The position numbers and the translations under genes are program-made. The notes under the pieces are model-generated. The model did no database searches. It was not told the DNA's origin and worked only from the letters and a program-made list of their open reading frames with translations. Below, piece after piece: positions 49,621 through 62,077 of a DNA stretch of 64,000 bases (position 1 is its first letter; each line of letters opens with the position of its first letter). The DNA comes from an uncultured Marinicella sp. (GTDB lineage Bacteria > Pseudomonadota > Gammaproteobacteria > Xanthomonadales > Marinicellaceae), in the NCBI GenBank assembly GCA_947502595.1, contig CANNAM010000006.1, positions 62,001 through 126,000 on the forward strand. Direction: 5' to 3'.

Positions 49621-50083
49621 GGTGGTAGGGATGGTTACTTAATAAGCTGTGAGCTCGATACAATTGTTCAGCCACAACCACCTTAACCAGCTGGTGTGGA
49701 AAAGTCAGTTTTGATAAAGACCAAGTTTGTTGTGCCTGAACCAAGACACTGCGATCTAAACCATCGGCACCACCTATTATGATGTTGACATCTTGTCCAT
49801 TCATCTGCCACTGGTCTAATTGTTTAGCCACATCAGTGGTTTTCAGTGCTTTGCCGCGTTCATCCAGCGCGATATTAAGGCTGTCTGGTTTCAATTGTTT
49901 TAAGATCAATTCAGCTTCTTGGCTTTTTATTTGCGCCACAGATAAACCTTTTTGTCTGGAAACAGCAGGCATTTCTTTGATGTGAATTTTCAGGTGATGC
50001 GGTAGACGATCGTTGTAGGTACTGAAAGCAACATTCACCCAATCAGGCATCTTATGCCCCAGGGTCAATAAGCTTATTTTCAT
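49613..50083 (-). CDS. rlmH: 23S rRNA m3-pseudouridine-1915 methyltransferase RlmH
   Basis: 156 residues of the SPOUT class. MKISLLTLGHKMPDWVNVAF, IALDERGKALKT, IIIGGADGLD and the knot region LSKLTFPHQLVKVVVAEQLYRAHSLLSNHPYHRE are diagnostic. It modifies pseudouridine 1915 of the 70S ribosome. Its ATG overlaps the rsfS stop (ATGA). Confidence 0.97.
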   Translation of the reverse strand: MKISLLTLGHKMPDWVNVAFSTYNDRLPHHLKIHIKEMPAVSRQKGLSVAQIKSQEAELILKQLKPDSLNIALDERGKALKTTDVAKQLDQWQMNGQDVNIIIGGADGLDRSVLVQAQQTWSLSKLTFPHQLVKVVVAEQLYRAHSLLSNHPYHRE

Positions 50084-50442
50084 TCTTCAGTGGATGCGTT
50101 GATGTCCCAAAGTCCTTCTAAATGATAAAACTCACGTGCCTCAGCACTCATGACATGCAAAACAGCATCGCCAGCATCAACTATCATCCACTCATCGGAG
50201 CTCAAACCTTCGGTACTGAGTACCTCGTATCCGTTGGCGGCCAATTCCTGCATGGCAGTCTCAGCCAAATGGCGCATGTGTCGATTGGAACTGCCGGTAC
50301 AAATAATCATGTAGTCTGTAACAGCGGTCAGGTGACCAACTTTCAAACTAACGATGTTAAGTGCTTTGGCGTCATCTAAGGCTTGCGTGATGACTGCTGA
50401 TATGTGATCGGCTTGTTTGGGGGTTTCTTTGGTTTCTTGCAC
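50080..50442 (-). CDS. rsfS: Ribosomal silencing factor RsfS
   Basis: 120 residues. HISAVITQALDDAKALNIVS, YMIICTGSSNRHMRHLAETA, EGLSSDEWMIVDAGDAVLHVM and ARFYHLE-like end match RsfS/Iojap, which binds L14 and blocks subunit joining during starvation. The start is GTG at 50442. It heads the run rsfS-rlmH-maf-rng-yhdP. Confidence 0.95.
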   Translation of the reverse strand: MQETKETPKQADHISAVITQALDDAKALNIVSLKVGHLTAVTDYMIICTGSSNRHMRHLAETAMQELAANGYEVLSTEGLSSDEWMIVDAGDAVLHVMSAEAREFYHLEGLWDINASTEE

Positions 50443-50775: not shown

Positions 50776-52893
50776 ATGACTTTACCCATCACCAAAACAC
50801 CGCTCTTGAACCAAGGCGAGGTCAACAGCAAACGCGCTGAAATCAAAGCACACTTCATCAGCACCTATGCTGCTTATGAAAACTTATTTACTTGTTTAAA
50901 GCATGATGACGCTTATTTTCACAAAGCCGAACCTCTGCGCCATCCTTTGATTTTTTATTTTGCCCACACTGCGGTTTTTTTTGTTAACAAACTCAGGGTG
51001 GCTAAGATCATTGATCACAATGTTGATGATGCTATCGAGTCCATGATGGCCATCGGCGTTGATGAGATGTCGTGGGACGATTTGAATGACGCCAATTATG
51101 CTTGGCCGTCGGTGGCGGCAGTACAAAACTACCGCAAGCAAGTCAAAGCTTTGGTCTTAGACTTGATTGACCGCTTGGATTTGCAACTACCGATTCAATG
51201 GCAAGACCCCTTTTGGGTCATCCTGATGGGCATCGAACATGAACGCATACACTTGGAGACATCCAGTGTTATCATCAGACAAATGCCAATAAAGTGGGTA
51301 CAAAACCAACCCTTATGGCCCAGACACCAAGTTGATCACCCGGTGCCAAACAACCAACTGTTGCACGTGGATGGCGGCACTGTGAAACAAGGCAGAAGCA
51401 CACCCAGTGAGACGTACGGCTGGGACAATGAATATGGCCAACAAAGCACCACAGTGGCAGCATTCAAGGCCAGTCAATTTCTGGTTTCGAATCATGAATT
51501 CTTAGAATTTGTAGAAGACGGAGGCTACCAAGACAAACAGTGGTGGAGCGATGAAGGCTGGCAGTGGCGTAAATTCAAACAAGCAGAACACCCTGTCTTT
51601 TGGTCTAAAAATGAGCAACAACAATGGCAGTACCGCAGTATGACTGAGGTGTTTAACATGCCTTGGAGCTGGCCAGTTGACGTCAATTTTTTAGAAGCCA
51701 AGGCTTTTTGTAATTGGCTGGCAGCCCGCACCGGTCGAGCCATTCGCTTACCAACCGAAGCCGAGTGGTGCCGCTTATACGAACAATGCATTGATGTACA
51801 CTACCCTCACTGGGACAAAGCCCCTGCCAATATAGAGTTGAACTATGCTGCATCAGCAGTGCCCGTGGACCAGTTTATTTTTGGTGCAGCCCAATTTGGC
51901 GATGTCATCGGCAATGTTTGGCAATGGACAGAAACCGCCATCGATGGTTTTGATGGCTTTCAAGTTCACCCAGTATATGATGACTTTTCAGTGCCTACTT
52001 TTGATGGTCAACACAACTTAATCAAGGGCGGCAGCTGGATCAGCACTGGCAACGAAGCCCATAAAGATGCCAGGTACGCCTTTCGCAGGCACTTTTTTCA
52101 ACACGCAGGATTTAGATACGTCGAATCGGAGCAAACAGTGGACCAAACCTTTAACACCTATGAAACAGATGAACTCATATCGCAGTACCTGGAATTCCAT
52201 TACGGTGATGAATACTTTGGTGTGCCTAATTTTCCCACAGCATGTATTGATGCTTTGATTCCGCATGTGAATACAACCAAAATGTCTCGGGCATTGGATT
52301 TAGGTTGTGCGGTGGGTCGCAGCAGTTTTGAATTGGCCAGGTATTATCAGCACGTCGATGCACTGGATTTTTCAACCCGTTTCATCCGCAACGCCATTAA
52401 CTTAGTCGAGCATGGCAAAGTTAAATACATGGTACCCACGGAAGGCGAGTTGACTGAGCTGAAAACCTTCAAATTATCGGCATTGGATTTGGGTGATAAA
52501 GTTCACAACGTCAAATTTTCCCAAGGAGATGCCTGTAACCTAAAAGGCAAATACAAGAACTATGACTTGATTTTTGCTGGTAATTTAATTGACCGTCTGT
52601 ACCAGCCTAAACAGTTTTTGGACAGCATAAAACTGCGCATTAACAAAGGCGGCTATTTGGTGCTAACCTCACCCTATACCTGGCTCGAAGAATTCACCGA
52701 CAAAGCCAACTGGTTGGGCGGCATCAAAGTCAATGGAGAGAACATCACCACCCTAGACGCTTTAAAAGCCCACTTAAAATCAGATTTTGAGTTGGTAGGA
52801 TCGCCACAAGACATCCCTTTTGTGATTCGTGAAACCGCCAGAAAGCACCAACACACTGTGGCACAACTAACCATTTGGAAAAAAATCAGTTGA
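50776..52893 (+). CDS. ovoA: Ovothiol synthase OvoA (5-histidylcysteine sulfoxide synthase with methyltransferase)
   Basis: 705 residues, full OvoA length. The N-terminal DinB-like domain carries the iron-binding HX3HXE motif (IEHERIHLE). The middle formylglycine-generating-enzyme-like domain has RLPTEAEWCRLYEQ, IGNVWQWTETAIDGFDGF and IKGGSWISTGNEAHKDARYAFRRHF. The C-terminal SAM methyltransferase has ALDLGCAVGRSSFELAR and YDLIFAGNLIDRL. OvoA joins cysteine to histidine C5 with oxygen, giving a sulfoxide, and methylates the final thiol-imidazole at the pi nitrogen. The next gene is a PLP enzyme suited to the lyase step. Confidence 0.94.
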   Translation: MTLPITKTPLLNQGEVNSKRAEIKAHFISTYAAYENLFTCLKHDDAYFHKAEPLRHPLIFYFAHTAVFFVNKLRVAKIIDHNVDDAIESMMAIGVDEMSWDDLNDANYAWPSVAAVQNYRKQVKALVLDLIDRLDLQLPIQWQDPFWVILMGIEHERIHLETSSVIIRQMPIKWVQNQPLWPRHQVDHPVPNNQLLHVDGGTVKQGRSTPSETYGWDNEYGQQSTTVAAFKASQFLVSNHEFLEFVEDGGYQDKQWWSDEGWQWRKFKQAEHPVFWSKNEQQQWQYRSMTEVFNMPWSWPVDVNFLEAKAFCNWLAARTGRAIRLPTEAEWCRLYEQCIDVHYPHWDKAPANIELNYAASAVPVDQFIFGAAQFGDVIGNVWQWTETAIDGFDGFQVHPVYDDFSVPTFDGQHNLIKGGSWISTGNEAHKDARYAFRRHFFQHAGFRYVESEQTVDQTFNTYETDELISQYLEFHYGDEYFGVPNFPTACIDALIPHVNTTKMSRALDLGCAVGRSSFELARYYQHVDALDFSTRFIRNAINLVEHGKVKYMVPTEGELTELKTFKLSALDLGDKVHNVKFSQGDACNLKGKYKNYDLIFAGNLIDRLYQPKQFLDSIKLRINKGGYLVLTSPYTWLEEFTDKANWLGGIKVNGENITTLDALKAHLKSDFELVGSPQDIPFVIRETARKHQHTVAQLTIWKKIS

Positions 52894-52936
52894 ACTTTAG
52901 ACTGACTGATTGGACACCCTGCTAGGCGGCTTATTT

Positions 52937-54049
52937 ATGATGCAATTTAAACCTTTTAAAATGGCTGCCTACAGTCAACAAGCCAACTGCAGTACAGCGA
53001 TTAACTTGCACAGCAGTAATCCAGAGCCTTTCAGTTGGTCCGAACTGGCTGCACTGACGCAGCTGGACTTAGGTCAAATCATCACCCAAAGTTCCTTTAA
53101 CTATGAATCTACCCAAGGCAACGTTGCACTGCGGGAACAGCTGGCACAACAACTCTACCCATCCACTTCAGCAGCCAATCTGGTGTTAACCTCTGGTGCC
53201 CAAGAAGGCATATTCTTAGTCATCAACAGCTTGATTCAGGCGGGCGACGAAGTGGTGACTTTCAGCCCTTGCTTTGAACCCCTGGTCTCAGTGGCCCAGG
53301 CTGCTGGCGCTCAGGTCAGCAGCATCCCATTGAACCCACAGGATAATTGGTCAATACCTTGGGCTACATTGGAGGCCAGCATCACCGCCAAAACCAAACT
53401 GTTGATCATTAATTTCCCGCACAACCCCACTGGATGCTCTATTCAAGCAACTGAATTGACTCGACTGATCGCATGCTGTGAAAAACATGGGGTGTGGTTG
53501 TTTTCAGACGAGGTGTTCAGGGGGCTGGAACATGACAAACAAGACACCTTAGCTGCTGTCGTGGAACAGTATAAAAGGGGTATTTCTATGGGCGTGATGT
53601 CCAAATCCATGGCCTTGCCTGGTATCAGAGTCGGCTGGTTGGTATGCCGCGACCAAAATTTACTGCAACAGTGGCTGACCATTAAATCTCATTTATCGAT
53701 TTGTCAAAGCAGTACAGATGCCCAATTAACCACAGCCCTGATACCATTCACTCATGCCATCCTGCAACGCAATACCAACATCATCAATACCAACAAAACC
53801 CTGCTTAACCACATGTTGGATGGTCACCCAAACTTTAAATTCAGCCTACCAACTGGATCAGCCACCGCATTCATTGAACTGAAATACCAAACAGGTGAAG
53901 CATTTTATTTACAGACGCTGCAAGAAAAGCAGCTGTTTGTGATGCCCAATCCAGCCTTTATGACCGCTGTCAATGGATTCAGATTGACCTTAGGCAAACG
54001 TCAGGCGGAACAACATTATCAAACAATTTTTCGCTTTGATACTGTTTGA
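52937..54049 (+). CDS. ovoB: PLP-dependent class I/II aminotransferase-fold enzyme, probable OvoB sulfoxide lyase
   Basis: 370 residues. PLP-fold marks: TSGAQEGIFLVINSL, INFPHNPTGCSI, LFSDEVFRGLE, and the PLP lysine in MSKSMALPGIRVGWLVC (about residue 224). The ATG at 52937 has GGCGG upstream; the open frame from TTG 52910 is less likely. By fold alone it could be an aminotransferase. It starts 43 bp after ovoA in the same direction. OvoB, the lyase that cuts the histidylcysteine sulfoxide to 5-thiohistidine, belongs to this fold, so I infer OvoB from context. Confidence 0.72.
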   Translation: MMQFKPFKMAAYSQQANCSTAINLHSSNPEPFSWSELAALTQLDLGQIITQSSFNYESTQGNVALREQLAQQLYPSTSAANLVLTSGAQEGIFLVINSLIQAGDEVVTFSPCFEPLVSVAQAAGAQVSSIPLNPQDNWSIPWATLEASITAKTKLLIINFPHNPTGCSIQATELTRLIACCEKHGVWLFSDEVFRGLEHDKQDTLAAVVEQYKRGISMGVMSKSMALPGIRVGWLVCRDQNLLQQWLTIKSHLSICQSSTDAQLTTALIPFTHAILQRNTNIINTNKTLLNHMLDGHPNFKFSLPTGSATAFIELKYQTGEAFYLQTLQEKQLFVMPNPAFMTAVNGFRLTLGKRQAEQHYQTIFRFDTV

Positions 54050-54078: not shown

Positions 54079-55848
54079 TTAAGATTTGAACGCCACAACT
54101 TGGTTGCGACCATTGTTTTTGGCTTGAAACAATGCCACATCAGCATGACTGAGTAGCAATGCCTTATTCAAGCCAGATAGCAATGAATTAGTCACTCCAA
54201 AACTGGCTGTGACATTGAACTGATGCCCGGTGGGTGAGCAGTCCAAATTTTCTATCGCTGCGCGCATTTTCTCTAACAACTTCACCGTCTTTTGCAATGA
54301 AATACCAGGCGTCACAATAACAAACTCTTCACCACCAAGCCTGGCGATTAAGGTGTCTTGATCCGTCACTTCCTCACAGGCTTTGATGACATTTTGTAAC
54401 ACCCAATCACCCACCATGTGCCCGTAAGCATCATTCACGTTTTTAAAATGATCTAAATCCATGATGGCTAAATTCACTTGGCTGGATTCTAGCTTACATT
54501 TTTTGATGATTTTCAACAGCTGTTCTTCAAAAGACTTGCGACTGAAAACCTTGGTCAAATGATCCACCTCAGAAATCGCTTTGAAATAATCATGCCGGCG
54601 TTTGATTTTATATGTCCAAAAACCCAGCAACAATAAACCAGTTAATACCAACAACATCAACAACTGCTGTTTCTGACTGGTTTCAGCAACCAATTTATTT
54701 TTTAATTGCAGAACTTGATTGTTTTGATTCAATTGCTCAATTTCTAGTTCTTGAGCTAAGTTGGCGTGCATGGCCCGAAAGTAAGCCACTTGAGTCGCCA
54801 TTTTTCGTTCAAACATATGCTTTTCAATGGTGTTTTTTTGTGACAAATAATTATATGCCGATTGCATTGCTTGATTTTCAAGACTCAAATTAATCAAAAC
54901 ATTAAGCACCAGTATCAATTGTTCTGACTCTCCTATGCTGCTGTTCCCGTCAAGGGTTAACAGCGCATAATATTGGGCTTTATCAGGTGCATCAACCAAC
55001 CAGTACATGTAGCTCAATACCGCATTGTAATAGACCTTGATGTTTTTAAAATTAGTTGCATCTACACTTTCTGCCATACTTTCGAGTTGCTGGACTGCCT
55101 TTTGAGCTTCAGCGGAATCAACAGATGGTTTATCAGTGAATTTATACCTGATTAGATCAAGTTTCAAAAAAACTGAAGCAATGGTGTTGTTTAATGACTC
55201 ACAAAGGTCAATGGCTTCAGTGATTTGTGTTTTATATGCCTCACCTTTGCCTTGCCGCATTAAAATACGGTACTTGTTATATACACCCATACACTTATCA
55301 TCTTCAGTGAAGTCACCCTTGATTAACAGGTCTGCATATTTGAGTGAAATGTCATCTTGATTCATCAATCGGTATGACAAGGCCACAACGTTGTAGGCCA
55401 TAGATAACAAATACTTATCAGCGGTTTGTTCAGTGAGTTGGATGGCTTGGTTCAAATTTTTTATGGCGGGCTCGAAATCGCCAGTAATGACCTGAAGATT
55501 GGCCAGCAGTTGTACAATCCTGGCTTGGTATTCAACAGCTAGACAGCGTGTTTTTAATGCTTTTAAATGTTCTATTGACTGTGCGTACTCACCCTTAAAA
55601 CTGTCTCGATACAGCAGCAAATAATTATAATAACAACGCTCATCCTCACTCATTAGAACTGTTTCAGACTGCAAAGCATTCAATGCAGCAGAAAACTCAT
55701 CTGACTTTGATTTACGAATCAATTCAAGCGCATACAGTTTTTGTTTGTAGTGCTGCGAATTTTGCTGGCTCACGCTCAAATCATCAACTTGAGCGTAAGC
55801 CACCCAAGAAATAAACAGTAACGCAATTATCGAACCAGTTTTACTCAT
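54079..55848 (-). CDS. Exported TPR-transmembrane-GGDEF diguanylate cyclase, copy 3
   Basis: 589 residues from the ATG at 55848, which opens signal peptide MSKTGSIIALLFISWVAYAQ; the frame also extends to a TTG at 55908, directly after the upstream peptide's stop. Helical TPR-like repeats (periplasmic, about 40-360), a coiled coil (EIEQLNQNNQVLQLKNKL), a membrane helix (QLLMLLVLTGLLLLGFWTY) and a C-terminal GGDEF domain with MDLDHFKNVNDAYGH and active-site GGEEF. No RxxD inhibitory site precedes GGEEF. It should make cyclic di-GMP in response to a periplasmic cue. One of three paralogues here. Confidence 0.88.
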   Translation of the reverse strand: MSKTGSIIALLFISWVAYAQVDDLSVSQQNSQHYKQKLYALELIRKSKSDEFSAALNALQSETVLMSEDERCYYNYLLLYRDSFKGEYAQSIEHLKALKTRCLAVEYQARIVQLLANLQVITGDFEPAIKNLNQAIQLTEQTADKYLLSMAYNVVALSYRLMNQDDISLKYADLLIKGDFTEDDKCMGVYNKYRILMRQGKGEAYKTQITEAIDLCESLNNTIASVFLKLDLIRYKFTDKPSVDSAEAQKAVQQLESMAESVDATNFKNIKVYYNAVLSYMYWLVDAPDKAQYYALLTLDGNSSIGESEQLILVLNVLINLSLENQAMQSAYNYLSQKNTIEKHMFERKMATQVAYFRAMHANLAQELEIEQLNQNNQVLQLKNKLVAETSQKQQLLMLLVLTGLLLLGFWTYKIKRRHDYFKAISEVDHLTKVFSRKSFEEQLLKIIKKCKLESSQVNLAIMDLDHFKNVNDAYGHMVGDWVLQNVIKACEEVTDQDTLIARLGGEEFVIVTPGISLQKTVKLLEKMRAAIENLDCSPTGHQFNVTASFGVTNSLLSGLNKALLLSHADVALFQAKNNGRNQVVAFKS

Positions 55849-55908
55849 AATTAAAAGTGCCCTCGAAGTAACCTCAGGCACTGTATTTTTAGTTGCACTT
55901 AGACACAA

Positions 55909-56984: not shown

Positions 56985-58820
56985 TTAAGGCACAGCTGGG
57001 TTGTATATCACCACTTGGTTGCGGCCTTGTTTTTTGGCTTGAAACAAGGCCACATCGGCATGGGTCAGTAACATATTTAAACTGTAACCAGAGCAGTTTG
57101 CAGATGACACCCCAAAACTGGCGGTAACAACAATGTCTGTGCCGGAGCTTGAACTGTCCAATGTTTCGACAGCCAATCTTAACGCTTCTACCTTGTTGTA
57201 CATTTCGTTGAAGTTTAAGCCCGGCATCACAATGCAAAACTCTTCACCACCTAACCTGGCTATAATGGTTTCACCTTCAATCAGCTCCTTACACGCATAC
57301 ACCACATTTTTTAACACCCAGTCACCAACCAAGTGGCCATGGTTGTCATTCACCCTTTTAAACCGATCTAAATCCATGATTGCTAAATGTATAGGCGCTT
57401 CTATTGATGCCATGCGTTTAATCAGCGCATTGGCCTGCTCTTCAAAAGCTTTGCGAGTCAATACTTTGGTTAAATGGTCTATTTCAGAAACACCTTTAAA
57501 GTAGTCATGACGTTTTTTAACTTTATACAACCACAACACCATCAGTCCCAATAAAGTGAGTATCAACATGATAACCAGCCGTTGGTTATTGGCCAATTGT
57601 TCGGTTAATTGCTTTTCTAGTTCCAGCACTGCTTTTTGCTGATTGAGCTGATCGATTTCAAACTCTTTGGCTAAATTTGAATGCTTAACCGTCATGAAGG
57701 CCATTTGTTTGGCTTTGGACTGACCATATAAATTCAATTCAACTCGATTTCTCTGACTCAAGTACTGGTAGGCGGCCAAGTACTTGTTCTCAGACAGTGC
57801 GACTTGTTCCAGCACCTCCAGTGCAAAAATTAACTGTAAGGTGTTACCCAACCCCTCATTCAAATCCAGGGTAGCTTTGGCAAACCCTTCTGCAGCATTG
57901 ATGTTTCCTTGTAATAAAGCAAATTTAGCTTCAATAGCAGCAAACTTTGCTTGAATGTTCTTGTATGGACCAACACTGATTTCAGGGCGCAAACCAACAA
58001 TCAGTTCACTCAACTCATTCAGTTTTGTTGGAGACAGGTTTTCGGTTTTTAACTTTCTATAGATGCTGTCCATCAAAAGCGATTGGGCGAACAACAAATT
58101 GCCACTGTCTATACAAGCATTGTCTGAGTAGTCGACTTCATTAACAGGTACATCTGATGAGCTGTCATGTAAATAAAAATGGTTTTTACTGAATTGTAAA
58201 CGGCATTTATTTTCTGTGGTTGGCTGCAGGTTGTATAAAATTTCACTGTATTTAATACTGAGTTGTTTTTGCCCCAAAATGTTATATACCATGGCTGCAG
58301 CCGAATAAGCGATTATTTTGGTGGTGGTGTCTGTGGTTTCTTTAAGTTCATTGATGGTGGTATCGATGTACAGTGATGCATCATTGTAGTCACCCCTGAG
58401 GGCAGCTAAATTAGCCAACAGGGCATCCATCCTAACAATATTTTTGATGTCTTTACACCTTGCCTTCAATTGTTTTGCATCATCAATGGCTGTTTGATAA
58501 TCCCCTTTAAAAGCCGTTTGATAGGCTTTTAAAAAACCGTAATGGCAACTTTGAAAAGCAGTCATACCATCTGCTACCAAGGCCAGGTTCTCTAAACCTT
58601 TTGCAAATCCGTCATGATCTGAGATTCGAATGGCTTCCAGCCTTAACATTTCTTGGTTAATTGACTCAGGATCGGTCAATTCATTTTGAGCTGAATGAGC
58701 CAGTCCAACGGTAAAAACAACACACAAGCAAAAGACGATTAAGCACAGTGCACCTGGTTGCTGACGAAAATAGTAGGGTAAATTATATTGGCTTAGCGGG
58801 TTATTCTTCGTCATCGTCAT
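56985..58820 (-). CDS. Exported TPR-transmembrane-GGDEF diguanylate cyclase, copy 2
   Basis: 611 residues. An N-terminal hydrophobic signal/anchor (LCLIVFCLCVVFTVGLAHSA), TPR-like helical repeats, a coiled coil (EIDQLNQQKAVLELEKQL), a membrane helix (RLVIMLILTLLGLMVLWLY) and a GGDEF domain from about 440 with MDLDRFKRVNDNHGH and GGEEF. No RxxD I-site. The ATG at 58820 lies inside the end of the precursor 2 gene in another frame, so the two overlap by 20 bp and are translationally coupled; ATG 58814 is an alternative. Very similar to copy 1 in the linker and GGDEF region. Confidence 0.9.
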   Translation of the reverse strand: MTMTKNNPLSQYNLPYYFRQQPGALCLIVFCLCVVFTVGLAHSAQNELTDPESINQEMLRLEAIRISDHDGFAKGLENLALVADGMTAFQSCHYGFLKAYQTAFKGDYQTAIDDAKQLKARCKDIKNIVRMDALLANLAALRGDYNDASLYIDTTINELKETTDTTTKIIAYSAAAMVYNILGQKQLSIKYSEILYNLQPTTENKCRLQFSKNHFYLHDSSSDVPVNEVDYSDNACIDSGNLLFAQSLLMDSIYRKLKTENLSPTKLNELSELIVGLRPEISVGPYKNIQAKFAAIEAKFALLQGNINAAEGFAKATLDLNEGLGNTLQLIFALEVLEQVALSENKYLAAYQYLSQRNRVELNLYGQSKAKQMAFMTVKHSNLAKEFEIDQLNQQKAVLELEKQLTEQLANNQRLVIMLILTLLGLMVLWLYKVKKRHDYFKGVSEIDHLTKVLTRKAFEEQANALIKRMASIEAPIHLAIMDLDRFKRVNDNHGHLVGDWVLKNVVYACKELIEGETIIARLGGEEFCIVMPGLNFNEMYNKVEALRLAVETLDSSSSGTDIVVTASFGVSSANCSGYSLNMLLTHADVALFQAKKQGRNQVVIYNPAVP

Positions 58821-58977
58821 CAGGGAGAATCATACAAACCAAGTCATGGTTTTGCGCTTTCAGCTGAATAAATGCGTGGTTTTGAGTCACTGAATCTGTG
58901 TACAATTGATCATTAGAATGTTGATGTACCGATTGAGTTTGACCCAATCGTTCTAAAATTTTTACTTTATTTTTCAT
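58801..58977 (-). CDS. Candidate borosin-type RiPP precursor peptide 2
   Basis: 58 residues from ATG 58977, with AGGGAA upstream. Starts MKNKVKILERLGQTQSVHQ and ends DLVCMILPDDDDEE. Same length as peptide 1, with closely similar ends and a variable middle. It begins 60 bp after the stop of the methyltransferase gene, the arrangement seen for split borosins, so it is the most likely substrate. The hydrophobic VCMIL before Pro and the acidic run would be the methylated core. Confidence 0.75.
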   Translation of the reverse strand: MKNKVKILERLGQTQSVHQHSNDQLYTDSVTQNHAFIQLKAQNHDLVCMILPDDDDEE

Positions 58978-59037: not shown

Positions 59038-59829
59038 TTAACATAAATCCTTGATTTTCAACAATCTATTTACCTGCTCAGTGTTTTTTTGTTTTTTATG
59101 CTGAGGCGGTATGACCAAAGTGCTCTTCATTAACAAGGGCACAGAAGTTAAATTTTGCAACTCAACGGTCTCCATTCTGGGCTTTTCAATCGGCAGTACC
59201 GCACATTCATAAACAATCACTTCATGGTCTGGAGAATACGTCTCTAACAGCATATCCACCAACACTTGTTTGGCTTCAATTGAGGTATCAAATACTTTCA
59301 AGCTGCGGTCCCCTGCAATGCCCACCTGCCACAATACCAAATAAGCACTGGGATCAAACTTCGTATGATTGAACATGAAATTATTGGCTTCAAAATGGGC
59401 ACAACCACAGCTACCAGGATCAATACCTAAGTCTGCATACAAACAATCTTCCGCTGAAATCCCAGGCTCCATATGTGCTTGATAGCCTTCGGCTCTGGCC
59501 ATGCGAATGGTTTCGTGCGGTGGCAAAGCAAAAACCCCGGGATGACCATAGAAAGCACCGCAAACATTGTTGCCTGCCCTGACCGCTTGCATAATCATAT
59601 CCCCCATTTCACGGTAAGTTGTTTTTCTGGACTTACCCGCTTCATACAAAGGCTGTAAACTGATGACATGTTCGTTCATGGTTTTCACCCACTCTTCCAC
59701 CAGTTGATTCGAAGCTGCCACAAACACCACATCAGCTTGTTCAATAAAATGACGTGACAGTGGCGTGATGTGAGACCCCAAAGTCATCCCCAAACCTACA
59801 TTTACTAAGCGCCCTTTTTTAGTTGACAT
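59038..59829 (-). CDS. Split-borosin-type peptide alpha-N-methyltransferase
   Basis: 263 residues of the tetrapyrrole (corrin/porphyrin) methylase fold, SAM-dependent. The N-terminus RLVNVGLGMTLGSHITPLSR lacks the cobalamin-pathway GPG pattern. LYEAGKSRKTTYREM gives Tyr62, Arg68 and Tyr72, with the same spacing as the catalytic Tyr/Arg/Tyr set of the borosin enzyme OphMA. FYGHPGVF (93-100), MEPGISAEDCLYADLGIDPG and YLVLWQVGIAGD match the bacterial split-borosin enzyme SonM as I remember it. Such enzymes methylate backbone amides of a separate precursor. GAGGAG lies before the ATG. No corrin or heme gene is near; two small peptide genes flank it. Confidence 0.85.
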   Translation of the reverse strand: MSTKKGRLVNVGLGMTLGSHITPLSRHFIEQADVVFVAASNQLVEEWVKTMNEHVISLQPLYEAGKSRKTTYREMGDMIMQAVRAGNNVCGAFYGHPGVFALPPHETIRMARAEGYQAHMEPGISAEDCLYADLGIDPGSCGCAHFEANNFMFNHTKFDPSAYLVLWQVGIAGDRSLKVFDTSIEAKQVLVDMLLETYSPDHEVIVYECAVLPIEKPRMETVELQNLTSVPLLMKSTLVIPPQHKKQKNTEQVNRLLKIKDLC

Positions 59830-60004: not shown

Positions 60005-61828
60005 TTAAGCCACCACAGGGGTATTAATCACCACCTGATTACGACCCTGGTTTTTGGCTTCAAACAAAGCCGCATCTGCGTGGGTTAATAATAAATTAAA
60101 ACTGTACCCTGAATTGGTGGATGATGACACACCAAAACTGGCAGTCACTGATATGTCTGCACCTGAAACAGAACAATCTAAATGCTCAACAGCATGCCTT
60201 AAAGCCTCCACTTTGGCATACATTTGATTGAAACTCATATCCGGCATAACCACACAAAACTCTTCTCCTCCTAATCTGGCTATGATCATGTCTTCCTCTA
60301 CCAACTCCTTACAGGCATAAACCACGTTTTTCAGCACCCAATCACCAGTCAAATGCCCATGATTATCGTTCACCTTCTTAAAGTAATCCAAATCCATAAT
60401 CGCCAAATGTATGGGTGCTTCATTTGACTGCATGCGATTAATCAGCTCTATGGATTGCTCTTCAAACGCTTTGCGGGTTAAAACCTTGGTCAAATGATCC
60501 ACTTCAGACACACCCTTGAAATAATCATGACGCTGTTTGATTTTATACAACCACATTGCCATCAAGCCCAAAAGCGTTAGTATCAATAGAATAACCAGAC
60601 TTTGGTTGTTGGCCACTTGCTCAGTTAATTTTTTCTCTAGCTCAAGCACTGCTTTTTGTTGGTTGAGCTGTTCTATTTCAAACCCTTTTGCCAAGTTGGT
60701 GTGCTTGACTGTCATGAAAGCCAGTTGCTTGGCTTGAGACTGGTCATATAAACTCAATTCAACTTGGTTTTTTTTATTCAGATATTCAAATGCTTGGGTG
60801 TAATTGTTTTCGGATAGCGCCACATTTTCCAGCACATCAAGCGCAATAATTGATTGCTCAGTATTGCCAAGCTTTACATTAACATCCAATGAATTTAAGG
60901 CATATTGACGGGCCTTCTGCGCTTCACCTTTGAGCCAATATAGTTTGGCTTTTAATGCAGCAAAAATACCAAGTATATTTTTATAAGGGCTTTGACTAAT
61001 CTCGCCTTCTACACTGCTGATGGTTGTTTCAATTTCATCCAGCGCTTGTTTTTTGCTGCCGCTCTGAGTTAACTGCCATTTGATATGGTCTAAAATAAGA
61101 AACTGGCTGTACAGTAAGTTGCCACTTTTTCTGCATAATTCTGACATGTCCTTTATTTCAGAAAACGTCACTGGTTGACTGCCAACCTCATCCTGATACA
61201 CATTGCTGATGAAGCTTAAATGACAGAGGTTTTCATCGGTTGGACTGAGGTTGTATAAAAGTTTACTGTATTTTGCACCTAACGCTTGTTGGTCAAGTAG
61301 GTTATAAACAACTGAGGCCGCAGAGTACACCAATGTTTTGGTTACTGTATCATCTGTTTTATTGGCATTTTGAATGACCAGGTCTATATGTTTAGAGGCC
61401 TTATCATAGTTGCCACCAATCACTGCTATATTCGCAATCAACGCATTCATTCTGATTTTCACCCGGGTGTCATCGCACCTGGGCATCAAATTTTCAATGA
61501 TTTCGACGGCTGTTTTTGACTCGCCTTTAAAAGCCTGTTGATAAGCCAGTAAAAATGAATAATGACAGTGTTGGTATGTCGACATCTCAATTTGTTTGAA
61601 CTTTAGTTTTTCCAAACCTGAATCAAACATAAGTGGCGATTTAATTCTTAATGATTCCAACCTCAGTATTTCATCAGTAATTTCTTCAGCTTCACTGACA
61701 TCCGCAACAACAGACTTACCCGCTGCAGGCACCACCAGCAAACATAAAAAGAGCATGATAAAAACACATGCTCTTGTATAGATGTCAAACAACATGACTT
61801 TTAAATCAGAACTCAGGACATCAGTCAC
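60005..61828 (-). CDS. Exported TPR-transmembrane-GGDEF diguanylate cyclase, copy 1
   Basis: 607 residues from a GTG at 61828 that overlaps the precursor 1 stop (GTGA); ATG 61795 is an alternative opening the signal segment (CVFIMLFLCLLVVPAAG). TPR-like helices (about 45-370), coiled coil (EIEQLNQQKAVLELEKKL), membrane helix (LVILLILTLLGLMAMWLY), and GGDEF with MDLDYFKKVNDNHGH and GGEEF. No RxxD I-site. The linker and GGDEF are nearly the same as in copy 2, while the TPR part has diverged, as expected if the sensor domains recognise different ligands. Confidence 0.9.
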   Translation of the reverse strand: MTDVLSSDLKVMLFDIYTRACVFIMLFLCLLVVPAAGKSVVADVSEAEEITDEILRLESLRIKSPLMFDSGLEKLKFKQIEMSTYQHCHYSFLLAYQQAFKGESKTAVEIIENLMPRCDDTRVKIRMNALIANIAVIGGNYDKASKHIDLVIQNANKTDDTVTKTLVYSAASVVYNLLDQQALGAKYSKLLYNLSPTDENLCHLSFISNVYQDEVGSQPVTFSEIKDMSELCRKSGNLLYSQFLILDHIKWQLTQSGSKKQALDEIETTISSVEGEISQSPYKNILGIFAALKAKLYWLKGEAQKARQYALNSLDVNVKLGNTEQSIIALDVLENVALSENNYTQAFEYLNKKNQVELSLYDQSQAKQLAFMTVKHTNLAKGFEIEQLNQQKAVLELEKKLTEQVANNQSLVILLILTLLGLMAMWLYKIKQRHDYFKGVSEVDHLTKVLTRKAFEEQSIELINRMQSNEAPIHLAIMDLDYFKKVNDNHGHLTGDWVLKNVVYACKELVEEDMIIARLGGEEFCVVMPDMSFNQMYAKVEALRHAVEHLDCSVSGADISVTASFGVSSSTNSGYSFNLLLTHADAALFEAKNQGRNQVVINTPVVA

Positions 61829-62001
61829 TCATCATCGTCATTAGGAAACAACACACAAACCAAATCACCACTCTGGATTTTCAATTGACTGAAAGCCTGG
61901 TCGTCTTTATGCAGTGTTTCTATCATCTGGTTCACTGAGTCATATTGATGAATTGATTTGGTTTGGCCGATTTTTTCTAACATTTTTATTTTATTATTCA
62001 C
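61825..62001 (-). CDS. Candidate borosin-type RiPP precursor peptide 1
   Basis: 58 residues from a GTG at 62001, 7 nt after AGAGGAAA. Starts VNNKIKMLEKIGQTKSIHQ and ends DLVCVLFPNDDDE. The stop overlaps the start of GGDEF copy 1. The open frame runs further upstream, but the ribosome-binding site and alignment with peptides 2 and 3 fix this start. Putative core VCVLFP before the acidic tail. Confidence 0.73.
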   Translation of the reverse strand: MNNKIKMLEKIGQTKSIHQYDSVNQMIETLHKDDQAFSQLKIQSGDLVCVLFPNDDDE

Positions 62002-62048
62002 TTTAAACTTTCCTCTTTTTGTTAATAATTTGGTTGCAACCTCATGCA

Positions 62049-62077
62049 TATATAAAAATCTTAACACAAACATTGAA
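62049..62077 (-). promoter_or_regulatory. Candidate promoter of the precursor 1 / GGDEF 1 unit
   Basis: On the minus strand TTCAAT (62077-62072), a 17-bp spacer and TATATA (62054-62049) lie about 50 bp before the precursor 1 start. The -35 is weak. Part of it overlaps a 17-bp match to the end of the methyltransferase gene. Confidence 0.3.

Follow-up and report, generated by a model that had tools for sequence, protein, structure and literature searches.

The window, which is the whole 64,000-nucleotide stretch of Marinicella DNA analysed here, carries an ovoA gene followed by a gene for a PLP enzyme. It is probable that the two genes form a self-contained unit for the antioxidant ovothiol A, in which the PLP enzyme would be a non-orthologous lyase from the branch that holds GntC and OrfR. 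Judged from its sequence and surroundings, this enzyme is best read as the C-S lyase of the pathway (OvoB function), and it fills the slot beside ovoA that is filled elsewhere by PatB C-S lyases. On the observed side, the case is made up of gene content, gene order, co-inheritance and a complete cofactor site. The OvoA/OvoB pathway to ovothiol has been described in PMC12631010 and in sections of PMC9103826 and PMC10903977.

The ovoA gene and the enzyme encoded behind it

The ovoA product can be assigned securely to its family by sequence, and it is full-length and intact. The ORF of 705 residues scores 668 bits against TIGR04344 (cut-off 400) and 335 bits against TIGR04345 (cut-off 170), both of which are NCBIfam equivalog models. 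Residues 9-704 align with the solved OvoA chain 8khq (E 3.1e-263), and the methyltransferase part matches OvoM (9bxl) and OvsM (9bxh) with E values of about 5e-80. The sequence-only reading had stated that OvoA keeps its iron motif and its FGE-like and methyltransferase domains; the motif, the Pfam domains (DinB_2, FGE-sulfatase and methyltransferase) and both TIGR models agree with this. Sulfoxide synthase and methyltransferase activities are predicted from this full-length family membership.

On the same strand, 43 bases separate the end of the ovoA stop codon from the first ATG of the gene for the PLP enzyme; translation could also begin at 52940 (ATG) or 52910 (TTG). The class I/II PLP enzyme claimed earlier at this distance past OvoA is confirmed by the ORFs, the bases and the Pfam match. 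Because both neighbouring ORFs (50080-50442 and 54079-55908) lie on the minus strand, the pair stands alone. A scan for promoters and terminators returned 4 and 4 matches against 5.7 and 4.0 expected, and no use was made of it.

Table 1. Features of the ovoA-PLP region in window positions; residues of the PLP enzyme are numbered from the ATG at 52937
Feature	Positions	Strand	Basis
ovoA, 5-histidylcysteine sulfoxide synthase with C-terminal 5-thiohistidine N-methyltransferase domain (predicted activities)	50776-52893	+	TIGR04344, TIGR04345, 8khq alignment
Sulfoxide synthase part of OvoA (DinB_2 and FGE-sulfatase), residues 8-449	50797-52122	+	Pfam, NCBIfam
HxxxHxE motif of OvoA, reading HERIHLE, presumably the iron ligands	51238-51258	+	Sequence; within the 8khq alignment
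Methyltransferase part of OvoA, residues 462-703	52159-52884	+	TIGR04345; OvoM and OvsM matches
PLP enzyme of 370 aa with fold type I; putative 5-histidylcysteine sulfoxide lyase (function of OvoB)	52937-54049	+	Aminotran_1_2; OvoA co-occurrence and adjacency
F194 of the PLP enzyme, at the place of GntC Y189	53516-53518	+	Alignment
K223 of the PLP enzyme, predicted Schiff-base lysine	53603-53605	+	K in 45/45 rows; aligns with GntC K219

The PLP enzyme matches the Pfam family Aminotran_1_2 with 154 bits (cut-off 19.7), and its AlphaFold model has a mean pLDDT of 91.6. This label, which is shared by 12 places in the genome, favours the alternative that the enzyme is an aminotransferase lying beside ovoA by chance while another enzyme of the genome performs the lyase step. 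Candidates for that other lyase would be two PLP enzymes that we take, from their sequences, to be of the Cys/Met type (G000 C7:97533 and C2:50667). We consider this alternative unlikely. In the NCBIfam comparison, the enzyme falls under the cut-off of every family among its best 25 of 81 matches: it reaches 124 bits for methionine aminotransferase (NF006569, cut-off 420), 209.5 bits for the PRK07324 aminotransferase (NF005593, cut-off 476), 220 bits for GntC (NF041364, cut-off 415), 182 bits for capreomycidine synthase VioD (TIGR03947, cut-off 390.9) and 106 bits for the PatB C-S lyase (TIGR04350, cut-off 340). On these scores among the best 25 of 81 matches, a methionine or other known aminotransferase was rejected. 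EgtE (TIGR04343, cut-off 400) is absent from the same 25, and because the 25th-best match has only 83 bits, any EgtE score must be far under 400. In addition, neither PatB nor EgtE exceeds its cut-off anywhere in the genome itself; the best EgtE-like score there is 89 bits, and an EgtE-like rival lyase was rejected. The combination that would have overturned the earlier proposal, namely a firm grouping with a known aminotransferase and another OvoB elsewhere in the genome, was therefore not encountered.

In the profile comparison, the solved chains closest to the enzyme are 3op7 (uncharacterised), GntC (8fft) and OrfR (4m2j), and Foldseek puts the same proteins first for the model. With a second structure aligner, 3p6k/3op7 and GntC come top (Z 44), followed by a prephenate aminotransferase (42.8) and OrfR (42.0). 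Since many aminotransferases score only a few Z units behind, the fold alone decides little, and their closeness counts against the lyase reading. Judged from sequence profiles, the characterised proteins closest to it are the arginine cyclases GntC (L-enduracididine cyclase, 8fft/8ffu) and OrfR/VioD (capreomycidine synthases, 4m2j/4m2m), with 181 and 146 bits, Foldseek ranks 4-12 and Z scores of 44.0 and 42.0; however, the identity in the fold alignments is 22-23%, and the GntC and VioD cut-offs are not reached. The window enzyme also shares its fold with the PatB family, but it is 15-19% identical to nine PatB rows and lies outside the PatB clade in the PLP tree. EgtE and related class-V C-S lyases catalyse a comparable step in ergothioneine synthesis, whereas the window enzyme belongs to another Pfam class.

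Pairing with ovoA in relatives and across the class

In 61 genomes (the own genome and 60 relatives; OvoA over cut-off, PLP type at E <= 1e-50), OvoA is present in 29 and the PLP type in 29. Both are found in 27, OvoA alone in 2, the PLP type alone in 2 and neither in 30 (Fisher p 9e-13, ignoring relatedness). In the genomes with OvoA alone, ovoA runs off the contig (G007) or the genome is 84% complete (G026), and those with the PLP type alone hold a fragment (G032) or a copy with two stops (G048). Among the 33 genomes of the own family, three are without both.

All 17 genomes of the own genus that show both genes have them side by side; because synteny extends to most of the genes around the pair, this adjacency carries little weight. 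Adjacency nevertheless exceeds general synteny, as seen from four stretches of 10.5-18 kb (L002, L183, L252 and L253) in which the pair is the sole match above 60 bits to window positions 40-64 kb. The first of these, a 14-kb stretch of Alteromonas sp. 5E99-2, has no further match above this level, and its pair nests within the clade of the window's genus in both the OvoA and PLP trees, which fits a transfer of the two genes together.

For the sister genus g3, the distance between the two genes ranges from about 0.5 kb (G025, from an ovoA fragment) and 0.6 kb (G028) up to about 43 kb (G019), and in G031 they lie on different short contigs. PatB over cut-off is present in six of the 11 g3 genomes, whose PatBs make up a clade distinct from the PatBs adjacent to ovoA, and also in the genome of Alteromonas 5E99-2. 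Both the separation in g3 and the presence of PatB in these genomes count against the lyase reading. No PatB over cut-off was found in the 18 genomes of the own genus.

Across the class, an even set of 369 genomes was searched (PLP type at E <= 1e-40, OvoA over cut-off). The PLP type occurs in 15, OvoA in 19 and both in 4 (G000, G135, G208 and G266), a modest association (p 0.005, Fisher, ignoring relatedness). In these four genomes, the PLP gene directly follows ovoA on the same strand, and none has a PatB over cut-off. Because 11 of the 15 genomes with the type at this threshold lack OvoA, the wider PLP family has other jobs. Elsewhere, PatB adjoins ovoA directly downstream in 11 of the 19 OvoA genomes and lies at another place in 2 (G275 and G415); the exclusion between the window type and PatB among the OvoA genomes has a p value of 0.004 (Fisher, ignoring relatedness). 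The two others, G220 and G412, lack the window type as well as any PatB over cut-off.

From 581 confirmed OvoA loci, the best 80 were also fetched, with neighbours sought by phmmer (1e-5) and BLAST clustering, which other PLP kinds may escape. The window type stands beside ovoA in 5 of them (L001, L002, L005, L006 and L023), and PatB follows ovoA in 10 and precedes it in 1 (L009); of the downstream PatBs, 2/10 are over cut-off and 10/10 lie inside the PatB clade. EgtE/SufS-like class-V enzymes adjoin ovoA in 3 (L014, 4628-5851; L038, 8049-9287; L077, 4065-5303). Those of L014 and L038 score 158 bits each against the EgtE cut-off of 400, and such enzymes are a possible third kind of ovothiol lyase. 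At the sensitivity used, most of these best 80 of 581 loci show no PLP gene beside ovoA, a point in favour of a chance neighbourhood in the window. A 1150-aa open frame in L026 was considered as an OvoA-OvoB fusion; its first 474 residues have no Pfam match, and no fusion was seen.

The PLP tree has 85 rows. Of 113 distinct PLP proteins, the 31 below 330 aa in length were dropped and 82 kept, and three proteins of the own genome that we take to be aminotransferases were added; one gene is present twice, as L207 and L223. Here, 31 of the OvoA-linked versions group together (96/88). Outside this group lies the copy of G208, which has a long branch, is 25% identical and lacks F194; its divergence counts against the lyase reading. 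The unlinked relatives make up two other clades (9 rows, 100/100; 4 rows, 99/95). The fork joining linked and unlinked versions is weak (80/0), and the AU test does not reject a single clade for all 32 linked versions (p-AU 0.47). Relatives of the PLP enzyme from genomes of the same class without OvoA over cut-off (L186-L193 and L195-L198) form clades of their own.

In a quick OvoA tree of 75 hand-chosen rows (2 more were dropped as copies), 25 of the 27 OvoAs with the window PLP type form one fully supported clade. Because G208 and L023 fall in two other parts of the tree, the OvoA partners of this type come from three places in that tree, and this recurrence in other families argues against an aminotransferase placed beside ovoA by chance. 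The earlier argument from adjacency to OvoB thus holds for the function, which gene order and the phylogenetic profile support. Among the sequences compared, it finds no support for membership of a usual OvoB lineage; the enzyme lies outside the PatB clade and nearest to GntC/OrfR.

Active site, proposed reaction and other readings

The active-site alignment contains 45 rows including the window, of which 32 are OvoA-linked and 13 unlinked; the latter include one from an OvoA genome (L157, the second copy in G025). The residues K223, D191, N163, R231 and R349 are identical in all 45 rows, so that the PLP site of the window enzyme is complete; for the last four, the usual roles or those of GntC are assumed. 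H162, D261 and F341 are present in 32/32 linked rows, and in 7, 3 and 2 of the 13 unlinked rows, respectively. Where GntC has Y189, all linked rows but that of G208 have Phe (31/32), which speaks against the aminotransferase alternative. In the unlinked rows, this position is Tyr in 9/13 and Phe in 4/13, and the latter share counts against the lyase reading. Nine PatB rows, in turn, have His at this place, in the SDE motif, unlike the window enzyme. The absence of tyrosine from position 194 in the linked and PatB groups alike is suggestive only.

Based on these results, the following pathway is proposed. OvoA, as is known for its family, would join histidine and cysteine into 5-histidylcysteine sulfoxide, a role expected here from its full-length membership. 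The PLP enzyme would then form an external aldimine with the cysteinyl amino group via K223, remove the alpha proton and eliminate the sulfur group from C-beta. The products of this step would be 5-thiohistidine (after reduction), pyruvate and ammonia, and methylation by OvoA would follow. The lyase would thereby be drawn from a PLP branch whose members GntC and OrfR/VioD, according to the part of PMC10367076 that treats them, are cyclases eliminating a gamma- or beta-hydroxyl; elimination of a group from C-gamma or C-beta is thus reported for these enzymes, and elimination chemistry is likewise proposed for the window enzyme.

The same kinship gives rise to another reading, in which the PLP enzyme acts at a different step or on a different product, converting 5-thiohistidine or ovothiol further or cyclising the sulfoxide. 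The nearest characterised relatives are indeed cyclases and not simple lyases, and the existence of a 5-thiohistidine N-acetyltransferase is evidence of a branch in the OvoA pathway (PMC12631010). Yet the enzyme occupies the PatB slot, and its own genus has no PatB over cut-off that could serve the lyase step, so that this reading appears very unlikely. Because the enzyme is nearest to amino-acid cyclases, there is likewise a slim chance that its PLP-bound intermediate is used for cyclisation or substitution, giving a 5-thiohistidine derivative other than ovothiol A.

The lyase reading also invites comparison with a characterised enzyme. Naowarojna et al. 2018 reportedly described OvoB of Erwinia tasmaniensis (presumably locus ETA_14770) as a PLP-dependent sulfoxide lyase of ovothiol synthesis. 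The window enzyme is like it in being a PLP enzyme of the OvoA pathway with the same proposed reaction, but it probably belongs to another PLP family, as judged from four Erwiniaceae genomes (Erwinia phyllosphaerae, Winslowiella and two Pantoea). The window type is absent there: the best scores with profile A1 are 104-112 bits, while OvoA-linked copies from the own family and G135/G266 reach at least 385 bits, except G022 with 349, and G208 has 238. PatB is over cut-off in 4/4 of these genomes, and the best class-V scores are 68-93 bits. Common descent with the Erwinia enzyme is therefore unlikely by sequence, and orthology in the strict sense, for which the shared dependence on PLP would speak, is exceedingly improbable. 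By elimination from the four genomes, we lean towards PatB as the family of Erwinia OvoB; the earlier classification of its gene as an ergothioneine C-S lyase, mentioned in a section of PMC9103826, speaks for an EgtE/Egt2-like family.

On these findings, at least three kinds of PLP enzyme seem to occupy the position next to ovoA: PatB C-S lyases, EgtE/SufS-like class-V enzymes and the window type. If this is true, a homology search for a single OvoB undercounts ovothiol producers. The signature of F194 with H162, D261 and F341 would offer a way to find the window lyase type and a handle for testing what makes a cyclase-like PLP enzyme a sulfoxide lyase. In the literature searched, with most subscription journals outside its scope, we found no description of this lyase type, whose absence from print is not claimed, and no paper on ovothiol in Marinicella.

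Other genes near the pair

A TP-methylase is encoded on the minus strand at 59038-59829 and matches the solved alpha-N-methyltransferase SonM (7ltc) with 236 bits. Two short, similar proteins adjoin it on the same strand (58801-58977 and 61825-62073), and in both the C-terminal end consists of DLVC followed by several hydrophobic residues, a P and an acidic tail. Together, these genes look like a split RiPP system with two precursors, presumably of the borosin type. In a pattern scan, short ORFs resembling the putative precursors were also found in the matching regions L249, L255 and L258. In addition, three similar large ORFs lie on the minus strand (54079-55908, 56985-58820 and 60005-61828); the first and third, which were the two scanned, show GGDEF and weak TPR matches. 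The short putative precursors directly precede the second and third, and this placement hints at a link between the putative precursor peptide and cyclic-di-GMP signalling.
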